In this document: piece by piece, positions 50,565-62,103 of the stretch
Numbering within the stretch: the stretch's first letter is position 1
How the letters are laid out: each line of letters starts with the position of its first letter
Source: Polyangiaceae bacterium
Lineage (GTDB): Bacteria; Myxococcota_A; Polyangia; Polyangiales; Polyangiaceae
Assembly: GCA_029261965.1 (NCBI GenBank)
Contig: JAJDAH010000378.1
Span: 1 to 63,419, forward strand
Length of the DNA stretch: 63,419 nucleotides
Reading direction: 5' to 3'
Notes under the pieces: model-generated
Seen by the model: the letters and a program-made list of their open reading frames with translations, nothing else
Told to the model about the DNA's origin: nothing
Databases searched by the model: none
Made by a program: the position numbers and the translations under genes

Positions 50565-51098
50565 ATGAGCGAAGAACACACGAAGCCAGACTCTACCGCG
50601 GAAAGCCTCGTCGGGGACACCATCGACGGTACGTACGAAGTCCGCCGTTCGATCGGTGGGGGCGCGGCGCCCGAGAAGCCGCTGATCGCGCTCGAGACGC
50701 GGCCGCGGTATCCGCTCGACCCGAGCGAGCAGGAGCGCACCGCGCCTCGTCTGGTCCCGGCAACGCCCGCCTCCGCACCTCGTGCGCGTCCGAGCTCTGC
50801 GCGTGGGAAACGAGCCCATCGCACAGCGGCCGGCTGTCAAGATCGATCGCGGCTTAGAGCCACGGGACGTGAGGCGACGCGCGAGGACGAGCTGCGCCCG
50901 CGTCAGCCCGATGTTGCTCATGCAGGATCCAATGGCTCTTTGCGCGGTGGAAACCTCGGTGGACCGGCACAAACATCCGAACCACCGCGGCCGAACGTTC
51001 CAGCGCCGTCGACTTCTACTGCAAGGCTTGGTCAAGTTCGTCCAACTTGGCCAATTGCGCGGGAGACAGGCCGGCGCGATTCGCCTGCAACCACCTAA
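50565..51098 (+). pseudogene. 5' remnant of a Ser/Thr protein kinase gene
   Basis: The first 40 or so residues, including AESLVGDTIDGTYEVRRSIG, are the normal start of a myxobacterial Hanks-type kinase, up to the glycine-rich ATP loop. There the homology stops (GGGAAPEKP...). The open frame runs on with Ala/Pro/Arg-rich sequence of no recognised family and overlaps the end of the convergent TMTC-like gene. No VAVK lysine, HRD or DFG motif follows. So the gene was broken near 50680, most simply when the island to the right was inserted or a deletion removed the rest. Confidence 0.65.
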
Positions 51099-52740
51099 GG
51101 TCGTCGAGCACGGATCGGCCCTGGCCGCACTCGACGCGAGCCGCAACATTTACGAGCCGCAACTTTTTTCGCAGGTTGCTAGGACCTGCCAACATCAAAC
51201 CTTCTCCCGCGGATTTCGTCGCCGTCGAACAGTCGCCTAGGTTGAAAAGCTCGTTCAGACTGAGCTCGTAGTACGCCGTCGCCTTGAGCGACGAAGAAGT
51301 CGGCAGGTCGATCAAAGCCAAGAGCAGCTGGCGAGCACGCAGATATTGCCCACTCTCCCGCTCTGCCTTTGCGAAATGCAGCATCGTTACCGGCAAGTCA
51401 ACGAACGCTACTATGTCATCCTGCGCCGCTAGGTCGAGAGCGACCTTCGCGTGGTGTGCGGCGCTCGCGTAGTGCCGTGCGGAGTACCGCGCTAGAGCGA
51501 GTCCGCTGTGAGCCTCCGCACACTTCCAATTCCGCGCGATCTCCCATGACCAGAGCGAAGAATCGTCGACAAAGCGACGGCCCCGCTCGGCAGCCTTTGC
51601 GCCTGATAAAACAAAGAAACAGAAACCAATGCCAAGTACCGCGCGGCCGGCCCGCCGCCAACGAATGGCCTGAAGCAAAACGGCGGTTGCCGCCGCCAAT
51701 ATTCCGGCGAGCGGGATGTACAAATACCTGTCCGCCATTGCGTGCCGAAGCGGGATGAGCCCAGAAACGGGGACCAGGAACGCAACGAACCACAGGATGC
51801 CACCGAGGGGCCAACGCATCTCCGGTCGCGAGCGCCGCATGCATGCGCAGACAGTGAGAGCAATCCCTACGAGCAGTAGAACCCATCCCGAACGCCAGGA
51901 ATGAGGAATTGGGAGCGCGTCGCACACGGATGCAGGGACTAGCAGAGCAGTGTATCCCAGATACTTCTCCATCGCGTCGCCAAAAAGGAGCAGGCGGTCA
52001 CCGAGGTTGACCCCGGTGTCCCTGATGGCTAGCCGTGCGTCGACATTGCTTAGAATCACTGCGGCGAGTCCAACGCAGGCACCTCCAACCATCCCCAAAT
52101 GGACCAAACGCCGACGTGGCCCTGTGAGGGCCGCTACTGCAAACGGGATGCAAGCGGCCGCGGCCGCTACCTCCTTAGTAAGCAAGCCAAACCAAAGGGC
52201 CACCCCCGCGAGAAGAGCCCATCGCGCCCTGCCGCGCTCTGCATAGGTCAGCCCCGCGTGCGCCCATAGAAGCAAACATGTCAAAGCCAACAGGTCTGGC
52301 CTCGCCCCGGTCCAAGCCACCACCGTCACGCAAACCGGGTGCGCCGCGAACAGGAGCGCCGTGGCGGGGCCAAGAGCCGAGGCGGGGGCCAATCGCCTAA
52401 GAAAGAAGCCCAGCAAGCATGCGTTTAGGAAGTGGACGGCGAGATTGGATAACCGGAACAGTTGGGGCGCGTCACCGAGCACGTAGAGACAGAGGGTGTT
52501 GTAAGCGGCGACGACGGGCCGATACGGATATTCCGAATGACCTGAGTGAATGAACTCCCAAAGTCTGCCAAAAGAATCAAAAGCAAATCCCCGATCGGTG
52601 ATCTGACGAGTGTCGGTCCACACGAACTCCCCGTTGAGCGCGACCATCAGCGGAAGGCAACCAAGCATCGCAGCCGCGAAGATGAGACGACACGGGATAG
52701 ACTTGCTGATCGACGAGTCGCTCAAGAGTCGTGACGCCAC
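51016..52740 (-). CDS. TMTC-like multi-pass glycosyltransferase with TPR tail
   Basis: 574 residues. About eleven membrane helices (residues 15-385) are followed by a soluble TPR-like helical tail (about 400-574: AHSGLALARYSARHYASAAHH). The first exported loop has NGEFVWTDTRQITD and YPYRPVVAAYNTL, and a later loop RHAMADRYLYIPLAG. These are the landmarks of TMTC/GT-C O-mannosyltransferase-like proteins, which use lipid-linked sugars. Whether it is active here is unknown. It is the last gene of the eight-gene operon, 14 bp after the Lnt-C39 gene; the GTG start has no strong ribosome site. The 3' end overlaps the kinase remnant frame. Confidence 0.72.
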   Translation of the reverse strand: MASRLLSDSSISKSIPCRLIFAAAMLGCLPLMVALNGEFVWTDTRQITDRGFAFDSFGRLWEFIHSGHSEYPYRPVVAAYNTLCLYVLGDAPQLFRLSNLAVHFLNACLLGFFLRRLAPASALGPATALLFAAHPVCVTVVAWTGARPDLLALTCLLLWAHAGLTYAERGRARWALLAGVALWFGLLTKEVAAAAACIPFAVAALTGPRRRLVHLGMVGGACVGLAAVILSNVDARLAIRDTGVNLGDRLLLFGDAMEKYLGYTALLVPASVCDALPIPHSWRSGWVLLLVGIALTVCACMRRSRPEMRWPLGGILWFVAFLVPVSGLIPLRHAMADRYLYIPLAGILAAATAVLLQAIRWRRAGRAVLGIGFCFFVLSGAKAAERGRRFVDDSSLWSWEIARNWKCAEAHSGLALARYSARHYASAAHHAKVALDLAAQDDIVAFVDLPVTMLHFAKAERESGQYLRARQLLLALIDLPTSSSLKATAYYELSLNELFNLGDCSTATKSAGEGLMLAGPSNLRKKLRLVNVAARVECGQGRSVLDDLRWLQANRAGLSPAQLAKLDELDQALQ

Positions 52741-52754
52741 AGATCAAGAGTTGT

Positions 52755-54704
52755 CTACTGGGTGCTAATGACCAAGAGCCTGCCGGACCAGAGACGTTCG
52801 AATTCGTTTCTACGTACGTTGCCCAGCCGGCCCGTGGCAGGATCAAAAACGAAACAGTCTTCGCGCCCGACGCTGACGATGACAACAAAGTGCCCAATTC
52901 CCAAGTGTGCAATGGCAGGCAGTGGAACGGTTCCTAGATCCTCGAATGTCGTTTCTACACCGGCGGCGTCGAAGCCTTGATCTCGGGCGAACTCTGCAAG
53001 ATCAGCGAACGACAAACCCGTCTCGGCCGCCGGAGGTTGTGATGAGACGAAGTCCTCCTCAAAAACTTCCGCACCAAGAAGCGTCAACGAGTAGGCTATT
53101 GCCGCTGCACCGCAAGTCAACTCACTCGACTGCCGGAAGAGTGGAGAAATTTCGTCCGGGATCGTCGCAGCCGACCCAATTCGAGTCGCGGCGAGCAACG
53201 GCACTTCACGCGCGACTGCTGTCGTGACGAGCTGAAGAACCAGTCCAGTGACAATGGCCCCTGCACCGAGCAGTCCCACAAAGCAGTATCGCGGAATCAT
53301 CACCCAGCGAAATGCAGCTTCTTCGCGCGCAGCGACGCCACGGCGCACACCTTGGTACGCCAGCCCTACTACCAACAGCATGGCGGCGACTAACATCGTC
53401 AATCGATGAACGACACAACCAATCGGCGCGGGAGTAGTAGCACGCCCAAGTTGGAAGGCGGTAACAGCGGGACCCTGAGCCTCCATGCTGCCCTGTGACA
53501 ATCTGCCGTACTCGTCCACCACGATCGCGGGTCCTGAATTCGACAGGAACAGCATGGGCCTGCGCACCGCGGCGGCCGCCAGCGCCGAATACTGAACGTG
53601 CCATTCCGTTAAGAAGCCCAGCTCGAAAGACGAGTCGTCACTAACAACAATGATGGCATCCGCGCCGTCATCGACCTGCTCTGCCAAATCGGAATGAAAG
53701 ACCGAGTCGAAGCAAATCGGGACGGCGAACATCCCTAGTGGTGTTTCCACAAGCCCGGTCTGGCCGACATCGTACTTTGATTCGGCGATTGGAACGACGC
53801 GACGCTTTCTGCTTGCGACCGCAACCGTACCATCAGATCGGAACACGACGACGCTGTTGTGTCGACTGCCGTCCGGCTGAAGGTCCGGGCTTGGCGCAAT
53901 AACCGTTGCACTTCGCCCCTTGAGCATTCGAGCAAACGCGCTTCTTCGTCGGTCCAGCCTAGCATTGAACAATCCATTTCCACCCTCTGGCCAGACGACA
54001 ACTTCGGCATCATCTTCCAATGCGGCTACGGTCAGCGCATCGAGTCGGTCTTCGATCAGTCTGCGCTCCTGGAGCGACCACGAGGCTCGATTGTGCGTTG
54101 CGTGGGGAATGGACGGCTCGATCGCATGAATTCTGACCGCGCTACTTGTCCGATCCGATCCTGCCGTCGCCAGAGCCACTAGAATCACAGCCGCCGACGC
54201 GCCCCAGACAACGCCGACGGTCCTCGCATCCAGCGATGCCAAGCTGCTCGACAGCGCGACCACTATTAGCTCAAGCACGGCGATGCCCACCGTACTTGTC
54301 GCAGCGACCAACTCAGGCAACTCTATGGGCAGCGCCCCGGTAATGTAGATTGGGGTGACGTACTCCGACGTAACGGTGGTTAGTGCTACCCACGCCATTG
54401 GCACTGCGCACCATCTCAACGACATCGGCAAGAGCGGCATCACGACTCGTGCACAGTAGAATGCCGCAGCGGCTACGAAGCCGCCGACCGCCCACGCCCC
54501 AAGTTGAAGTGAAGTCTGCCAGCTGGCAAGACTGTAGGGCACTACGGAGTGCCAGATCAGTCCGACCACTGCGCCGCACAGTCCCCAGGAAGGCGCTGAG
54601 TTCTCCTTGCGCAGTGCCCAGAGAACAGGCACGAGAGCTACGCAACTTATCCAGGAGATGTGGACCGGCGGAAAGCTGATCTGCAACAGCAAGCCCGAAG
54701 TCAC
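52755..54704 (-). CDS. Apolipoprotein N-acyltransferase-like protein fused to a C39-type cysteine peptidase
   Basis: About 649 residues. The N-terminal 170 residues are membrane helices like those of Lnt (LLLQISFPPVHISWISCVALVPVLWAL opens them). A nitrilase-type domain follows with a complete Glu-Lys-Cys triad: E240 in WPEGG, K300 in ASRKRRVVP and C331 in VPICFDS. After the last Lnt helix (about 435-453) an added helix (475-496) leads to a C39-like peptidase domain (about 515-649) with Q525...C531 (QSSELTCGAAAIAY), H605 in GIGHFVVIV and D621 in FDPATG. The helix count places both catalytic domains outside the membrane. The GTG at 54704 is preferred, as AGGAGG lies 4 nt upstream; an in-frame TTG at 54752 overlaps the preceding gene. 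Possible roles: acylating lipoproteins of the operon and cutting a Gly-Gly leader. Confidence 0.82.
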   Translation of the reverse strand: MTSGLLLQISFPPVHISWISCVALVPVLWALRKENSAPSWGLCGAVVGLIWHSVVPYSLASWQTSLQLGAWAVGGFVAAAAFYCARVVMPLLPMSLRWCAVPMAWVALTTVTSEYVTPIYITGALPIELPELVAATSTVGIAVLELIVVALSSSLASLDARTVGVVWGASAAVILVALATAGSDRTSSAVRIHAIEPSIPHATHNRASWSLQERRLIEDRLDALTVAALEDDAEVVVWPEGGNGLFNARLDRRRSAFARMLKGRSATVIAPSPDLQPDGSRHNSVVVFRSDGTVAVASRKRRVVPIAESKYDVGQTGLVETPLGMFAVPICFDSVFHSDLAEQVDDGADAIIVVSDDSSFELGFLTEWHVQYSALAAAAVRRPMLFLSNSGPAIVVDEYGRLSQGSMEAQGPAVTAFQLGRATTPAPIGCVVHRLTMLVAAMLLVVGLAYQGVRRGVAAREEAAFRWVMIPRYCFVGLLGAGAIVTGLVLQLVTTAVAREVPLLAATRIGSAATIPDEISPLFRQSSELTCGAAAIAYSLTLLGAEVFEEDFVSSQPPAAETGLSFADLAEFARDQGFDAAGVETTFEDLGTVPLPAIAHLGIGHFVVIVSVGREDCFVFDPATGRLGNVRRNEFERLWSGRLLVISTQ

Positions 54705-54748
54705 CGAACCTCCTAGGAGTCGGCCCGTCACCCCTCGAGCCTGTCCGA

Positions 54749-55714
54749 TCAAGGGACCTGCCCCGGCGTGAGTCCCGCGTCCGAGCCAACGGTCGCAGCA
54801 ACATCCGCCGCCTGAGCTTGATCTTCACGCACCTCGGCGATCTTGTCGACAAGCGGGATGATCGCGTAGCTTAGAACGATTGAGAAGGACACGAGGTAGG
54901 CAAGTCTTGTAATGCGGCGTCCGGTCGCGCACTGAGTGAGGCCCAGTATCAAGAGCAGCCACCCGAAGCCCACGACTGGTGCAACAGCGTATGTTGCGAG
55001 AACAAACGCCAAAAGCAGCCAATCCGCGGCGGCGCTATACCGATTCTTCGGCAGTACAAACATCACCCCGATGACAGCTTCGATTATCAGAGTCGCCCAG
55101 GTCAATCCGAACGCTAGAGCGGAAAGCGCCTGCGGGATAATGAGTGTGGCTGTGTCGCCAGGTAGCCCGTTGCGCAAGAGCCCGCGGAACAGGATCATGT
55201 CGTGGAGAAGCGTTCCACTGTCGGTCACGCCGAGGAGAAGGACGAAGTCGCGAAATCGGCCATCTAGAACCAGACTGGCAGTAAAGAAGGTGCCGTCTCG
55301 GTAGTCTGACGACAGTATCCCCTTCCATATCGCGGCGGCGCAGAACACGGTGCCCAGCAGGGCCCTCGCGTTCCACGCCAACGCTACGATTCTCTCCCTT
55401 GCTCGCATCGAAAGCGCCACCGACCAGCACCAGTAGGCAAGTAGATAGTCGTGGTTGTCAGAAGGCCATTCGAGTCTGAGCGTCGTCAAAAGCGCGATGG
55501 GCACCCAGAGCAGATAGCTCTGAGCTGCTCGCGGACTCAGCAGGCCCAAGGCAGCGAGCGCAGTTGCGCCGAAACGAATTGAATCAGCTCCTACGGGTCT
55601 AAGCAGCAAGTAGAGTAGCGTAACCCGCCCGGCAATTTCTTCTGGCGGAGCATCAAGAACGTCTGAGACGAACTGGGCCCCGCGTTTACGGAGGGCTGCG
55701 AACGTCAACCTCAC
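54749..55714 (-). CDS. HTTM-like (vitamin K-dependent carboxylase-like) membrane protein
   Basis: 321 residues with about eight membrane helices and a short acidic tail. RLEWPSDNHDYLLAYWCWSV and WKGILSSDYRDGTFF resemble the HTTM family, named from bacterial relatives of gamma-glutamyl carboxylase. A large extracytoplasmic carboxylase domain is absent, so no reaction can be assigned. GTG start, overlapping the upstream small gene by 29 bp. Probable partner of that small protein. Confidence 0.6.
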   Translation of the reverse strand: MRLTFAALRKRGAQFVSDVLDAPPEEIAGRVTLLYLLLRPVGADSIRFGATALAALGLLSPRAAQSYLLWVPIALLTTLRLEWPSDNHDYLLAYWCWSVALSMRARERIVALAWNARALLGTVFCAAAIWKGILSSDYRDGTFFTASLVLDGRFRDFVLLLGVTDSGTLLHDMILFRGLLRNGLPGDTATLIIPQALSALAFGLTWATLIIEAVIGVMFVLPKNRYSAAADWLLLAFVLATYAVAPVVGFGWLLLILGLTQCATGRRITRLAYLVSFSIVLSYAIIPLVDKIAEVREDQAQAADVAATVGSDAGLTPGQVP

Positions 55715-56087
55715 GCAACCTCTCCATCGTCAGCGTTGCATCGGAGAAAACCACTCGGTTCACCTGAACTCGCACGCCGTTGAAGCCAGGCGGGTGCTCA
55801 ACAGCAAGTACGTCCTCGCCCAGGCCTTCGAGAAGCTCGAGCGCAGGGAAGATTTTTGCGGTGTGCTCTGCACGTGCGGGCGGCTTCGCGCCAACTATCC
55901 TGGGCTCACTCTCTGCGCCGAGCGCGTAGTACCTGAGCGTTCGGAACCGGGCGCTGTCAGTCGTGGCAAACATGCCAAACCCTCCGCCTTTCCAAGGGGA
56001 GAGATCCGTCGTTGCCGTGAGTCCAACTTGGACCACGGCAACCGCGACCAGCACAGCGGGTGGCAGTTTCCAAATGGGCGTGCTCAT
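55686..56087 (-). CDS. Small single-helix protein with WKGGGFGMF motif, HTTM partner
   Basis: 133 residues. One N-terminal hydrophobic helix (PPAVLVAVAVVQVGLTA) is followed by DLSPWKGGGFGMFATTDSAR and a compact alpha/beta region (FRTLRYYAL; VRVQVNRVVFSDATLTM). Small proteins of this kind are often encoded next to HTTM genes (recalled, not checked). Function unknown. ATG start overlaps the previous stop by four bases (ATGA). Confidence 0.7.
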   Translation of the reverse strand: MSTPIWKLPPAVLVAVAVVQVGLTATTDLSPWKGGGFGMFATTDSARFRTLRYYALGAESEPRIVGAKPPARAEHTAKIFPALELLEGLGEDVLAVEHPPGFNGVRVQVNRVVFSDATLTMERLREVDVRSPP

Positions 56088-56686
56088 TCGCCGGCATCGC
56101 GCGCATCGGCGCCTGCGGTCTCTACGGTCCCGTCCGGTACCTCCCGGCGTTGACCCGAATCGGCACGATTCGATTTCGCGGCCGCGTCGATCACACGAGC
56201 TTTGCGCGTCCCTGCATCGCCGGGTGGGGCCTCTTCCCAGAAACCCCTGATCCGATGTTCCTTCCGGGAAGCGACCTCCAGAATATCAACCTCGTACCTA
56301 CCGAACGCCTTCAGGTCCATTCCCGGCGCCATCATGCCCACGACGTTGCCGCCTAGCACTTTGAGCTTCCCATCGCGGGTCTGGCCTGACCCCAGGCGAA
56401 CTCGAATGTCTCCGCCCGCGCAGGTTCCGGAGCCCGTTAGTACGAGCGCGGGCGCGCCGGCGCCTTGCGGCGTTGCAAGCTGGACCTTTGCACTGATTCC
56501 CCCGGACTCCTGCTTGGTGAGCGCAAGTTTGCCCGCGCCTCGAACCCGACCGAAGTAGTGGACTGAATACGACTGGGACGTGACGGCGGCGCATGTGCTG
56601 CCGCCTGAGCCGCCGCCATCGCACCCGATAAGCGCTGCGACCGCAGCTGACACGAGAAACGACTGCGGAGCCCCGTGGCCTCTCAC
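56084..56686 (-). CDS. Secreted lipoprotein of unknown function
   Basis: 200 residues. Signal peptide with lipobox (AALIGC, Cys22), Gly/Ser stretch, then a beta-rich domain (SYSVHYFGRVRGAGKLALTK; APALVLTGSGTCAGG; IRVRLGSGQTRDGKLKVLGG) and a polar tail. No family recognised. Possible substrate for the Lnt-like acyltransferase encoded three genes later. GTG start overlapping the previous stop (GTGA). Confidence 0.7.
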   Translation of the reverse strand: MRGHGAPQSFLVSAAVAALIGCDGGGSGGSTCAAVTSQSYSVHYFGRVRGAGKLALTKQESGGISAKVQLATPQGAGAPALVLTGSGTCAGGDIRVRLGSGQTRDGKLKVLGGNVVGMMAPGMDLKAFGRYEVDILEVASRKEHRIRGFWEEAPPGDAGTRKARVIDAAAKSNRADSGQRREVPDGTVETAGADARDAGE

Positions 56687-57375
56687 TTCGATGAAAGGAG
56701 CCGTTCCACCCGCGTGGCGTGCTTCCGAATACCTGGGTAGGGACTCTCAGCCGCCCGTGCCAACAGCGGAGCGCCGCTGACATTGGGGGGTAGAGAGCGC
56801 AGGGCATCCACAACAGCGAATTGAGCACTTCTCTCAGACCCTCGTCGAACCCCCTCTACTTCCTCGGGGTCCACCTGATCAATCGCATGCGCGGGAACTT
56901 TCCTGAGTTTGGCTTCAACGGCACGGTCAGCTATTGCACCAGCGCTGTCGAACACGCGCACCATCGCATCGACGCCTCGATCTCCACCGTGCTTTGCGAG
57001 TACCGTGAGCACGACGTCGAGCTGCTCGCTGCTAAGATGCTCGAGAACCGCAACATCAGCGAGTTCGTCAACATAGCCAGCCTGCGATACGTCGCCGCGT
57101 GTTCGAATCGCCTCGTCGTTGATCGTCGGCTTGATCCTTGGCTTGTCAGGATCAAAAATGTCATCTACCGGCAGGCTTGCCGAAAGAACCGCCGCCACCA
57201 CTTCCGCCCGAGGAGCCTCGTTGCGAGCCACGATCGGCAAGCGCGACGATTTCGTCGTAGCCGTCGTCGTTGCTATTGAGGTCTCTTCTTCTCGTTCGCC
57301 ACTCGTCACTGCGCAGCCACCAGCAACGGCAGCTGTCGCGGCTGCCAAGAGGAAATCGCGTCGAATTCTAGTCAT
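56683..57375 (-). CDS. Tat-type lipoprotein with HEAT-like helical domain
   Basis: 230 residues. MTRIRRDFLLAAATAAVAGG followed by Cys is a twin-Arg signal with lipobox, so it is probably exported folded. The domain from about 50 is helical, with repeat-like pairs (DELADVAVLEHLSSEQLDVV; GVDAMVRVFDSAGAIADRAV; PLLARAAESPYPGIRKHATR), suggestive of HEAT repeats. Likely a binding or scaffolding subunit. The ATG at 57375 is preferred because GAGGAG lies 9 nt upstream; a GTG at 57384 abuts that site. 24 bp after the metzincin gene. Confidence 0.7.
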   Translation of the reverse strand: MTRIRRDFLLAAATAAVAGGCAVTSGEREEETSIATTTATTKSSRLPIVARNEAPRAEVVAAVLSASLPVDDIFDPDKPRIKPTINDEAIRTRGDVSQAGYVDELADVAVLEHLSSEQLDVVLTVLAKHGGDRGVDAMVRVFDSAGAIADRAVEAKLRKVPAHAIDQVDPEEVEGVRRGSERSAQFAVVDALRSLPPNVSGAPLLARAAESPYPGIRKHATRVERLLSSK

Positions 57376-57399
57376 TGCTCTCACTCCTCAGCCCACCCA

Positions 57400-58503
57400 C
57401 TACGGGCACGCATTCAAGTCCGGAAACAGCGTGTCCTCGTAGACCTCGGTACACTGGGTAGTCGTCACCTCGCGCCCGGCTGCCGAGCACATGAAGTTGC
57501 GCCCGCCCTCGGAGCCTGAGCAGTCAGTGGTGGTGTGTGACTGTCCTACGCGATGGCCCCATTCATGGACGTAGATCGACGCTCGGTCTACGTCTTTTTT
57601 GATGAGGACCCACCTACGGTTCCCGCCGGGCGCCCAGCCGTTGAACCCCTTGTAGCTCTCAGTTTCCGCGTCCCACTGGTTAATCGAGTCGACGTAGATG
57701 AAGTTGATGTGTTCCTCGTGTGTCGAACTCTCAGCTGCCAACGCCTCTTCGAAAGTGGCCTTGTAATCGTCACACGATTCCAAACTGAACAGCTCGCGAT
57801 CGGGCCCCGAGGGTCCATCGAAGAAGATGTCGAGACAGTCCTCCTCAGAGTGTCCCTTGCTGGTCAGCTCATGAAACTTCCGGGTTTCATCGTATCGGAA
57901 GTTCCACTGTTCGGCACCAGCACAATGCCCCGAGATGACGTCGAACCCCTCGGTCGATGCATTGTAGTATCCAACGTCCAAATTGTCGGCGAAGTCCTGA
58001 TTCTCTGCGACTGTATCACCGGTAATGGTTCCCCCAACCTCCTGCTGGTAGAACCTCGCGGATGCTAGTTTGACTTCGGGATCGATCCGGTAATCGTTCG
58101 TATCGTCGCTACCCGGCTCGGCGCTTCCGCAGTTCTCGCCGTTCGTGTCACACGGAATCAAGGTGACCGTCTGGTACCCACACACGGGAAAATTGCGCGC
58201 GCGCTGCCGGTAGGTGTCTGTATGATCCGGGGCCGACGTATCAACGGTCCCGAAGTTGTTCTTGGTCCCCTCCACGTCCATTTCGATACCGACACTACTC
58301 AGCGTGTAGCTGTAGATCGTGGCTGTCACGTAGACGTTATCGAACTCACTAGTGTGATTTTCGGAGTGAAGGATGTTGATGAACACGCCGCCTTTGGTCG
58401 CTTCCATTTCGGTAGCACTCAACGAACGGGTGGCCTGCGCTGCGTAGGTTTCGCCGGCCAACAGGAGCCCGACGGCAGGCAGCAGATAGTGGTGGAATCT
58501 CAT
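57400..58503 (-). CDS. Secreted metzincin-type zinc protease with a double-Gly leader-like prosegment
   Basis: 367 residues. A Sec signal (1-21, MRFHHYLLPAVGLLLAGETY then A) is followed by QATRSLSATEMEATKGG (23-39). This looks like the leader ending of double-glycine peptides: LSxxEM then Gly-Gly at 38-39. The mature part contains the full metzincin zinc motif HEWGHRVGQSH (313-323) and a probable Met-turn at M338 (GRNFMCS), so it should be an active metalloprotease. Cysteines at 108, 118, 125, 194, 223, 244, 328, 339, 351 and 366 suggest disulfides. AGGGAG lies about 8 nt before the ATG. The C39 domain encoded five genes downstream is the obvious candidate to cut after Gly39. Confidence 0.82.
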   Translation of the reverse strand: MRFHHYLLPAVGLLLAGETYAAQATRSLSATEMEATKGGVFINILHSENHTSEFDNVYVTATIYSYTLSSVGIEMDVEGTKNNFGTVDTSAPDHTDTYRQRARNFPVCGYQTVTLIPCDTNGENCGSAEPGSDDTNDYRIDPEVKLASARFYQQEVGGTITGDTVAENQDFADNLDVGYYNASTEGFDVISGHCAGAEQWNFRYDETRKFHELTSKGHSEEDCLDIFFDGPSGPDRELFSLESCDDYKATFEEALAAESSTHEEHINFIYVDSINQWDAETESYKGFNGWAPGGNRRWVLIKKDVDRASIYVHEWGHRVGQSHTTTDCSGSEGGRNFMCSAAGREVTTTQCTEVYEDTLFPDLNACP

Positions 58504-58513
58504 AACAATCTCC

Positions 58514-59086
58514 CTATGGACTACTGGGCGAACCACACAGATCGTCGTCGTCACAATCTTCGAAGCCTAACTGGCCGGGCCCTTCATCGGCGCATTTTGC
58601 GAAAGGAACGCTGATGGTAGAGCAGCACGTCAGGAGGTTGGAGAACTCTGCCTCGGTGCCCTGATCCGCCGCGAGCTCCTGCCCATCGATACAGCGCTGC
58701 TCACAATCGGCCCGAAAGTACGCCGGACAGCTGTCGAAGAGGTGACCGCACACCTGCCCGCACGGACCGGGCCCGAACCGCCCAGAGTCCGGCGTGGAGC
58801 CGCCGGAGTCGGGCGTCGAAATCGAGGAGTCAGGTTTCACGCCGGCGTCGGGCGCCGAAGTCATGGAGTCAGGTCTTACGCCGACATCGGGGTTGCCTGG
58901 GCCCGCTCCACCCGCTGCTGCCATGCCACCGGCACCCGTTCGGGAGTCACCTGCGCCACTATCAAGGACCGCAGCGCCGCCCACTCCTCGCACCCCGGCG
59001 TCCGGGCTCAAAGCCCCAGAGTCAGTCTGCCCACCGCACGCCGGAACGGCAAGAAGGCAAGCAAGCGCCCCCCCTAGTGACGTCAT
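58514..59086 (-). CDS. Cys-rich lipoprotein with Asp/Pro/Ser repeat linker
   Basis: 190 residues. Signal with lipobox (LLAVPAC, Cys17), then an acidic linker with repeats of PDxGVxPDSxxS and STPDSG to about 105. A compact Cys-rich domain follows (CGQVCGHLFDSCPAYF, CEQRCIDGQ, LTCCST, CADEG, DCDDDDLCG), probably disulfide-bonded. No family recognised. It is the first gene of the operon, 10 bp before the metzincin gene, with its own promoter directly at the start codon. Confidence 0.72.
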   Translation of the reverse strand: MTSLGGALACLLAVPACGGQTDSGALSPDAGVRGVGGAAVLDSGAGDSRTGAGGMAAAGGAGPGNPDVGVRPDSMTSAPDAGVKPDSSISTPDSGGSTPDSGRFGPGPCGQVCGHLFDSCPAYFRADCEQRCIDGQELAADQGTEAEFSNLLTCCSTISVPFAKCADEGPGQLGFEDCDDDDLCGSPSSP

Positions 59087-59092
59087 GGGTCT

Positions 59093-59122
59093 AGTCTATG
59101 CGTGCCACGAATGCGCTGTCAA
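59093..59122 (-). promoter_or_regulatory. Promoter of the eight-gene operon
   Basis: On the minus strand TTGACA (59117-59122) is followed after 18 bp by TAGACT (59093-59098). Transcription would begin at or next to the A of the ATG at 59086, giving a leaderless first gene. It is the clearest sigma-70-like promoter in the window and the only obvious one for the operon. Confidence 0.6.
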
Positions 59123-60850: not shown

Positions 60851-61023
60851 CACGCGCCCCGACACCATCCTCGCGGCTGACCGCGCTATGCGGCTCGCAT
60901 TCGTACTTGACTGGAGCATCGCCCCGTAACCACATGAAAAACGGAGTTGGAGCCCTTCTTCGACCTCGGTACGCTACCGACGCCGTCTCCAGCGGCGAGC
61001 CGCAACACGAGCGGGCGGAAGGC

Positions 61024-62103
61024 ATGGCGGAAGAGAATGCATCGAGGGTGTGGATCGTAGGTTCGGGGTTTAGCGTTCCACTCGGCGGCCCGACGTTGAA
61101 GACGCTGTTGAGTGGCAACTCCTTCGTCGTGCTGCGCAACTTGTATCCGGTAGACAGATTTCCCAAGCTGGGCGATGGCGACGTTGAGGCGATCTACAAG
61201 ACGTATGCGGCCGGCGTGGCGAGCAGTGCCTGGAACGATGCCGAGGCCTTCCTGAAGACGCTAGACGCTGCCGCGAACAGCGCCGAGGCGAAGGTCAAAG
61301 ATGCGAACCTCGTGTTGCTGCGACACCTCAGGGCTCCGGCGATGACTCAAAGCACGACCCCCGTTCACAAACTGGCCCCTGTTGCTCGAAGAGTCATTGC
61401 TGCCGAGTGCTGTGCGTTTCTCAAGGGTGCGGATGCCAGGGATGAGGAGTGGCGGGCGTATCGGTCGTGGGGAGCACAGCTCGACGGCGGCGATTCTGTC
61501 ATCACCTTCAACTACGACCGCGTACTGGAGCGGCTCGCAGCAGCGAAGCGCGCTCCATGCCTTGGCACTCCCCGGCTTAGCCTCGAACGCTTCGTCGGGA
61601 CGACCGGCTACGACGCCAACCTTCCCGATACGCCGAACGTCTTCAAGATGCACGGGAGCGTTGATTGGGCGGCATCTGACGACGGCATTTGCCAACGGGG
61701 CGACGAAAATGCGCTGATGTGTGACGACGACGAGTTGCTGATAGCCACGCCGGGACGCAAGAAAAGGGAGACGGTAGCGGCACGCCTGCTGGAAATCTGG
61801 AACAAGGCGATCGCGACGATTGAGCGCGCTCGCCATGTGGTTTTCGTCGGCTACCGCCTACCGGAGACGGACGGCGAGGCGCTTGAGAGGATCATGCGCG
61901 CGCTCAGACGGAATCAGAACCGGGATCTCACAATCCACATCGTTCTCGGGCCGCACGACAGCGCGGACGTTCAGCGAATGGACACGTTGATGCGATACGT
62001 CGCGCCCCAACGAACGGGTGCGACGCTCGTGCGTACGCAGCGGGCCTGGGCGCAGGACTTCATGGCGGCGTACGAGCCCGGACTGCTCGACGCGAACCCG
62101 TGA
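61024..62103 (+). CDS. SIR2-like (NADase-type) protein, probable defence effector
   Basis: 359 residues. SIR2 fold motifs: VWIVGSGFSVPLGGPTL (9-25) for NAD binding, SVITFNYDRVLERL with N163, NVFKMHGSVDW with H210, and HVVFVGYRLPETDGEALERI near the C-terminus. The Asn/His pair is that of SIR2-type NAD hydrolases found in anti-phage systems (DSR, Thoeris ThsA-like and others). No second domain is evident. The ATG at 61024 is chosen because the NAD motif follows directly; a longer frame to 60907 adds unrelated sequence. Followed 165 bp later by an unknown gene. Confidence 0.78.
   Translation: MAEENASRVWIVGSGFSVPLGGPTLKTLLSGNSFVVLRNLYPVDRFPKLGDGDVEAIYKTYAAGVASSAWNDAEAFLKTLDAAANSAEAKVKDANLVLLRHLRAPAMTQSTTPVHKLAPVARRVIAAECCAFLKGADARDEEWRAYRSWGAQLDGGDSVITFNYDRVLERLAAAKRAPCLGTPRLSLERFVGTTGYDANLPDTPNVFKMHGSVDWAASDDGICQRGDENALMCDDDELLIATPGRKKRETVAARLLEIWNKAIATIERARHVVFVGYRLPETDGEALERIMRALRRNQNRDLTIHIVLGPHDSADVQRMDTLMRYVAPQRTGATLVRTQRAWAQDFMAAYEPGLLDANP

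Follow-up and report, generated by a model that had tools for sequence, protein, structure and literature searches.

An eight-gene row in the genome of a Polyangiaceae bacterium (GCA_029261965.1) is a composite, made up of a conserved four-gene core and lineage-specific additions. The window, that is, the whole stretch of DNA analysed here, covers 63,419 nt of contig JAJDAH010000378.1 (positions 1-63,419 of the forward strand), and the row consists of the open reading frames g1 to g8, all unbroken and all on the minus strand from 59086 to 51016; every gene and domain coordinate given below for the window is on that strand. The core comprises a secreted pro-metzincin (g2), a HEAT-type protein (g3), a small lipoprotein predicted to be a barrel (g4), and a fusion of an apolipoprotein N-acyltransferase (Lnt) with a C39 peptidase (g7), while the additions are g1, g8, and a separate module, g5-g6. 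Judging from its domain content, its intact catalytic residues, a double-glycine (GG) leader that follows a signal peptide in the right register, the predicted membrane topology, and its conservation in two families, the core is probably a dedicated maturation unit for the secreted metzincin, in which a tethered periplasmic C39 peptidase would cut the exported precursor after Gly-Gly; we hold this reading with modest confidence.

A four-gene core at two loci

All four core genes recur in G260, a Myxococcales metagenome-assembled genome from another family of the same order, with identities to the window proteins of 26% for the metzincin, 34% for the HEAT-type protein, 34% for g4, and 33% for Lnt-C39. 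The order there is metzincin, HEAT, Lnt-C39, and g4-like gene, compared with metzincin, HEAT, g4, g5, g6, and Lnt-C39 in the window. Counterparts of g1, g5, g6, and g8 were not found at the G260 locus, and the whole G260 genome has no relative of g6 or g8 at E<=1e-5. The original prediction had taken the eight genes for one system and proposed to test whether they keep their order in Myxococcota genomes. As a conserved system of eight it does not hold: four genes do occur together in a second genome, but the other four are missing and the order is partly changed. Joint conservation of four genes at about 30% identity, though two genomes are few, is hard to explain by chance on the strength of these comparisons.

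The core is rare wherever it was sought. Apart from g7, a profile search of 184 genomes from the order yielded a single full Lnt-C39 protein, the one in G260, and a search for the fusion in 318 genomes of the class added only a relative in genome G126, leaving active Lnt-C39 in 2/318. The metzincin was found only where active Lnt-C39 was, in the same two genomes whether the phylum (2/379) or the order (2/184) is considered. Scanning 84,980 species genomes with a single protein gave no match, and a profile scan of species genomes returned the G260 contig and otherwise ordinary Lnt proteins. No Lnt-C39 match was found among viral contigs, and plasmids gave partial Lnt or C39 matches only. As a separate observation, a C39 peptidase gene of 558 bp is present on a 5.9 kb mobilizable Escherichia coli plasmid (L105:577-1134), with no ABC (ATP-binding cassette) transporter gene listed in the stretch fetched.

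Proposed pro-metzincin maturation and competing explanations

The protease gene g2 (57400-58503, start ATG at 58503) encodes a protein in which a predicted Sec signal peptide precedes a bacteriocin-type GG leader, LSATEMEATKGG (58387-58422, residues 28-39), after whose last residue, 39, a C39 cut is predicted; the G260 protease carries LSREQMQEIEGG. Both leaders are in the canonical register LSxxxMxxxxGG, agreeing at L-12, S-11, E/Q-8, L/M-7, and GG with the described consensus LSXXELXXIXGG (PMC6181422). In both proteases a signal-peptide-like stretch precedes the leader, unlike in precursors that have the leader at the extreme N terminus and no Sec signal. The zinc-binding motif of g2, HEWGHRVGQSH (57535-57567, residues 313-323), has the metzincin signature HExxHxxGxxH; its equivalent in G260 is HEIGHTYLGGH. 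Beyond it lies a conserved Met-Cys at M338, a candidate Met-turn from its sequence. The Gly-Gly-leader metzincin that had been called from the letters of the window is thus borne out in motif and leader. Its match to a curated family is sub-threshold: neither protease passes the cut-off of any curated metzincin family in Pfam, with g2 reaching 15.4 bits against Matrixin (E=0.018, cut-off 24) and the G260 protein 18.5 bits against Reprolysin_2 (cut-off 27).

The predicted Lnt-C39 fusion is confirmed by three Pfam domains over their cut-offs in g7 (52755-54752): LNT_N (E=1.7e-6, 28.7 bits, cut-off 27.1), CN_hydrolase (E=4.5e-9, 36.4 bits, cut-off 23.2), and Peptidase_C39 (PF03412; E=2.8e-18, 66.5 bits, cut-off 22; 49 bits in the G260 fusion). 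The C39 domain (52764-53141) has a catalytic set, Q541, C547, H621, and D637, that is invariant between the two fusions, and the nitrilase (CN_hydrolase) domain (53496-54044) has a Glu-Lys-Cys triad, E256, K316, and C347, invariant in four sequences. The nitrilase domain of E. coli Lnt sits between transmembrane helices TM7 and TM8 and faces the periplasm (PMC5500890). In both fusions TM8 is followed by a charged loop (5 Lys/Arg and 2 Asp/Glu in the window, 10 and 2 in G260), then by a ninth helix, TM9 (53226-53282 in g7), and then by the C39 domain. Because TM9 comes after a positively charged loop, the positive-inside rule applied to this hydropathy prediction places the C39 domain on the periplasmic face, on which a Sec-exported leader would emerge. 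As a whole protein, g7 stays below the cut-off of the Lnt equivalog model TIGR00546 (105.2 bits, cut-off 132.9) and far below that of the FapD model NF058616 (28.7 bits, cut-off 330).

The two other core proteins are less easily classified. The g3 product (56683-57375) is an RR-containing, lipoprotein-like protein with a lipobox and has no Pfam match of substance; its HEAT-type label comes from its G260 homologue, which matches HEAT_2 below the cut-off (E=8.3e-5) and by its look is an ordinary secreted protein, with no lipobox. The g4 product (56084-56686) is a lipoprotein with the lipobox LIGC, and its G260 counterpart also has a lipobox; Pfam gave no match for g4. A low-confidence structure model (predicted local distance difference test, pLDDT, 51) suggests an eight-strand beta barrel whose closest structures are generic ones of the avidin and NHBA/fHbp/TbpB types (Z up to 9.6), with Inh-type inhibitors absent among the structure matches listed. 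We do not assign g4 as an inhibitor or a lipid binder on a low-confidence model and generic barrel matches.

In the maturation we propose, Sec would export the metzincin and signal peptidase would take off its signal, so that the exposed leader could dock on the C39 domain, tethered by Lnt-C39 at the outer face of the inner membrane; cutting after Gly-Gly would then release or activate the protease. The nitrilase half, on the same face, might acylate the N terminus freed by the cut; on a more conservative view it would acylate the lipoproteins of the operon. The g3 and g4 products may bind, chaperone, or inhibit the protease. The envelope maturation system that had been envisaged for the whole row is in this way narrowed to a protease-maturation unit of four genes. 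Several observations weigh against it. Leader-like patterns occur at background frequency across the genome (3 matches, and 3 in the control), and since the pattern alone sits at that level, the evidence for the leader is its position and conservation. Residue -4 of the window leader is Thr rather than Ile or Val, g4 precedes Lnt-C39 in the window and follows it in G260, and the full core is present in two genomes only. The genome pattern scan yielded no further GG-leader clients with a signal peptide.

A possible alternative, though one we doubt, is that the two halves of g7 have separate clients, the Lnt half triacylating g1, g3, and g4 and the C39 half trimming the metzincin, with the fusion serving only to co-regulate or co-localise them. 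The lipoboxes of g4 at both loci and of g3 in the window, together with the intact Glu-Lys-Cys triad, are what this would lead one to expect, and mycobacterial Ppm1 is a precedent for an Lnt joined to a second enzyme (PMC3850990). However, the G260 form of g3 has no lipobox, and a separate canonical Lnt is present in each of the four genomes examined, which argues that g7 is not the housekeeping Lnt. Furthermore, Y388 and E389, which are essential in E. coli Lnt (PMC5500890, PMC3850990), are replaced by Phe and Asp in both fusions (F348 and D349 in g7). It is plausible from these sequence features that the Lnt half is a specialised acyltransferase. Besides g7, three Lnt-type genes of the source genome (G000) exceed the family cut-off (C401:18334-19521, C42:12588-13769, and C155:26764-27873).

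An extension of the maturation reading, which we consider unlikely, would make Lnt-C39 bifunctional, with C39 exposing an N terminus that the nitrilase half then N-acylates, so anchoring in the membrane a protease that lacks a lipobox cysteine. If it is true that the Lnt half acts on the same client, proteins could acquire a lipid by a second route that does not depend on cysteine.

Less likely still, the C39 domain could be a leader-binding or quality-control module beside a metzincin that activates itself. Inactive C39-like domains do bind substrate in some type 1 systems (PMC5557850), and the C39 Cys is gone from two relatives of the fusion, in genomes G015 and G126, which retain a C-terminal domain. 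In G015, where the Lnt has no protease neighbour, this domain resembles the C39 profile above shuffles; in G126 it does not exceed shuffles, and we rejected it as a dead C39. Against a binding role, all catalytic residues are kept at both loci that have a GG-leader protease. The G126 relative stands in a row of three genes (L051:6971-11176), directly downstream of a trypsin-like protease gene and followed by a lipoprotein gene, which is a possible parallel to the core in the window. The association of Lnt-type proteins with secreted proteases may extend beyond this one cassette. Finally, a chance neighbourhood of eight unrelated envelope genes and a fortuitous Gly-Gly would suit the background frequency of the leader pattern and the lack of joint conservation for four of the eight genes, but the same motif in the same place of a 26% identical homologue, beside the same four genes, already weakens this explanation, which we regard as very improbable.

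Genes outside the core and the transcription unit

The g5-g6 pair is an independent, obligate two-gene module of many families of the phylum that here lies inside the protease operon. The first gene, g5 (55686-56087), encodes a one-helix protein with a SPWKGGGFGMFAT motif and no Pfam match, and g6 (54749-55714) encodes its multi-pass partner, which has relatives in 16/242 genomes of the phylum. The independence of the module follows from its neighbours elsewhere: a g5 relative lies directly upstream of the g6 relative at each of ten loci from other families (L121-L130) and in genome G432, and a GGGFGM(F/Y) motif is present in G432 and at eight of the first nine loci read. Two further genes recur upstream at six of these ten loci; one encodes a periplasmic DUF2092 protein and the other a secreted protein rich in Gly and Arg, which is of the DUF6515 type at one locus.

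The enzyme labels that had been given to g6 and g8 stand in part. For g6, called HTTM, which has no match of any kind in Pfam at E<=1, neither the protein nor two relatives match Pfam HTTM (PF05090) at that threshold, and the similarity is remote: a g6 family profile aligns with the HTTM profile in hhalign at 82% probability (E=1.1e-5, with no shuffle control for the family profile), and a two-row g6 profile scores 26.1 where the shuffle maximum is 20.9. The comparison spans the K..W/Y.xG and E motifs, but the FH His is absent. AlphaFold, given the single g6 sequence, produced no usable model (pLDDT 46.7). The last gene, g8 (51016-52740), called TMTC-like, encodes a multi-pass protein with a helical C-terminal part that narrowly passes the PMT_2 cut-off (PF13231; E=6.8e-6, 26.8 bits, cut-off 26.1) but has no tetratricopeptide repeat match at E<=1. 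The carboxylation and glycosylation activities suggested for the operon are unsupported. The first gene, g1 (58514-59086), encodes a Cys-rich protein of 190 amino acids with a lipobox-like start, LAVPAC, and no match in Pfam or NCBIfam.

The tight packing of the eight minus-strand genes was described correctly. From g1 to g8, with g2 starting at its ATG, the junctions measure +10, +24, -4, -4, -29, -4, and +14 bp, that is, overlaps of up to 29 bp and gaps of at most 24 bp; the g6-g7 spacing becomes 44 bp if g7 begins at its second in-frame GTG (54704), as read from the sequence. Because of this spacing, a single transcript for all eight genes is likely. Terminator-like sites on the minus strand within the operon are weak, with no strong one interrupting it. 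The promoter proposed at 59093-59122 is more equivocal: its pattern (TTGACA/TAGACT, 59122-59093) is present and is the sole one near the expected place, but the three such sites found are close to the shuffle background (1.8 +/- 1.4). Were this pattern to act as the promoter, the message would begin close to the g1 ATG and be leaderless (59086-59122). Upstream of the operon, window positions 60907-62103 have SIR2_2 and weaker AbiH-type matches, possibly marking a phage-defence gene.

Comparison with known systems

In serralysin operons, the metzincin AprA is accompanied by the inhibitor AprI/Inh and leaves the cell by type 1 secretion. The window likewise has a secreted metzincin near a small, putatively periplasmic protein with a predicted barrel fold, although kinship of g4 with Inh is by analogy only and the protease here has a Sec signal. 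Peptidase-containing ABC transporters (PCATs) share a C39 domain and the GG leader LSxxELxxIxGG with this locus; unlike them, g7 has LNT_N, CN_hydrolase, and C39 domains and neither permease nor ATPase domains, its presumed substrate has a Sec signal, and its C39 domain is predicted to be periplasmic. With Lnt itself, g7 shares LNT_N and a nitrilase domain with Glu-Lys-Cys, and it differs in its extra helix and C39 domain, its score below the TIGR00546 cut-off, and its changed Y388/E389 positions. Mycobacterial Ppm1 is also a bifunctional Lnt fusion linking acylation to another envelope modification, but there the partner is a polyprenol-monophosphomannose synthase rather than a peptidase (PMC3850990).

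No paper in the literature searched mentions apolipoprotein N-acyltransferase alongside both C39 and double glycine. The parts are known, the mechanism would extend known periplasmic C39 cutting, and the system looks real but rare. Its closest precedent may be FapD of the Pseudomonas functional amyloid system, a periplasmic C39 needed for amyloid secretion (PMC5557850), which, as proposed here, acts with no ABC transporter and is encoded beside a secreted client. FapD differs in being soluble and Sec-exported, with clients that have no canonical GG leader (PMC5557850), whereas the C39 of this locus is part of an Lnt fusion, with a leader-bearing presumed client encoded nearby. Periplasmic C39 peptidases have been described as uncharacterised, and Fap proteins as having no canonical C39 sequences (PMC5557850); by pairing a predicted periplasmic C39 with a presumed client whose leader is canonical, this locus makes specificity directly testable in a poorly understood class of enzymes.

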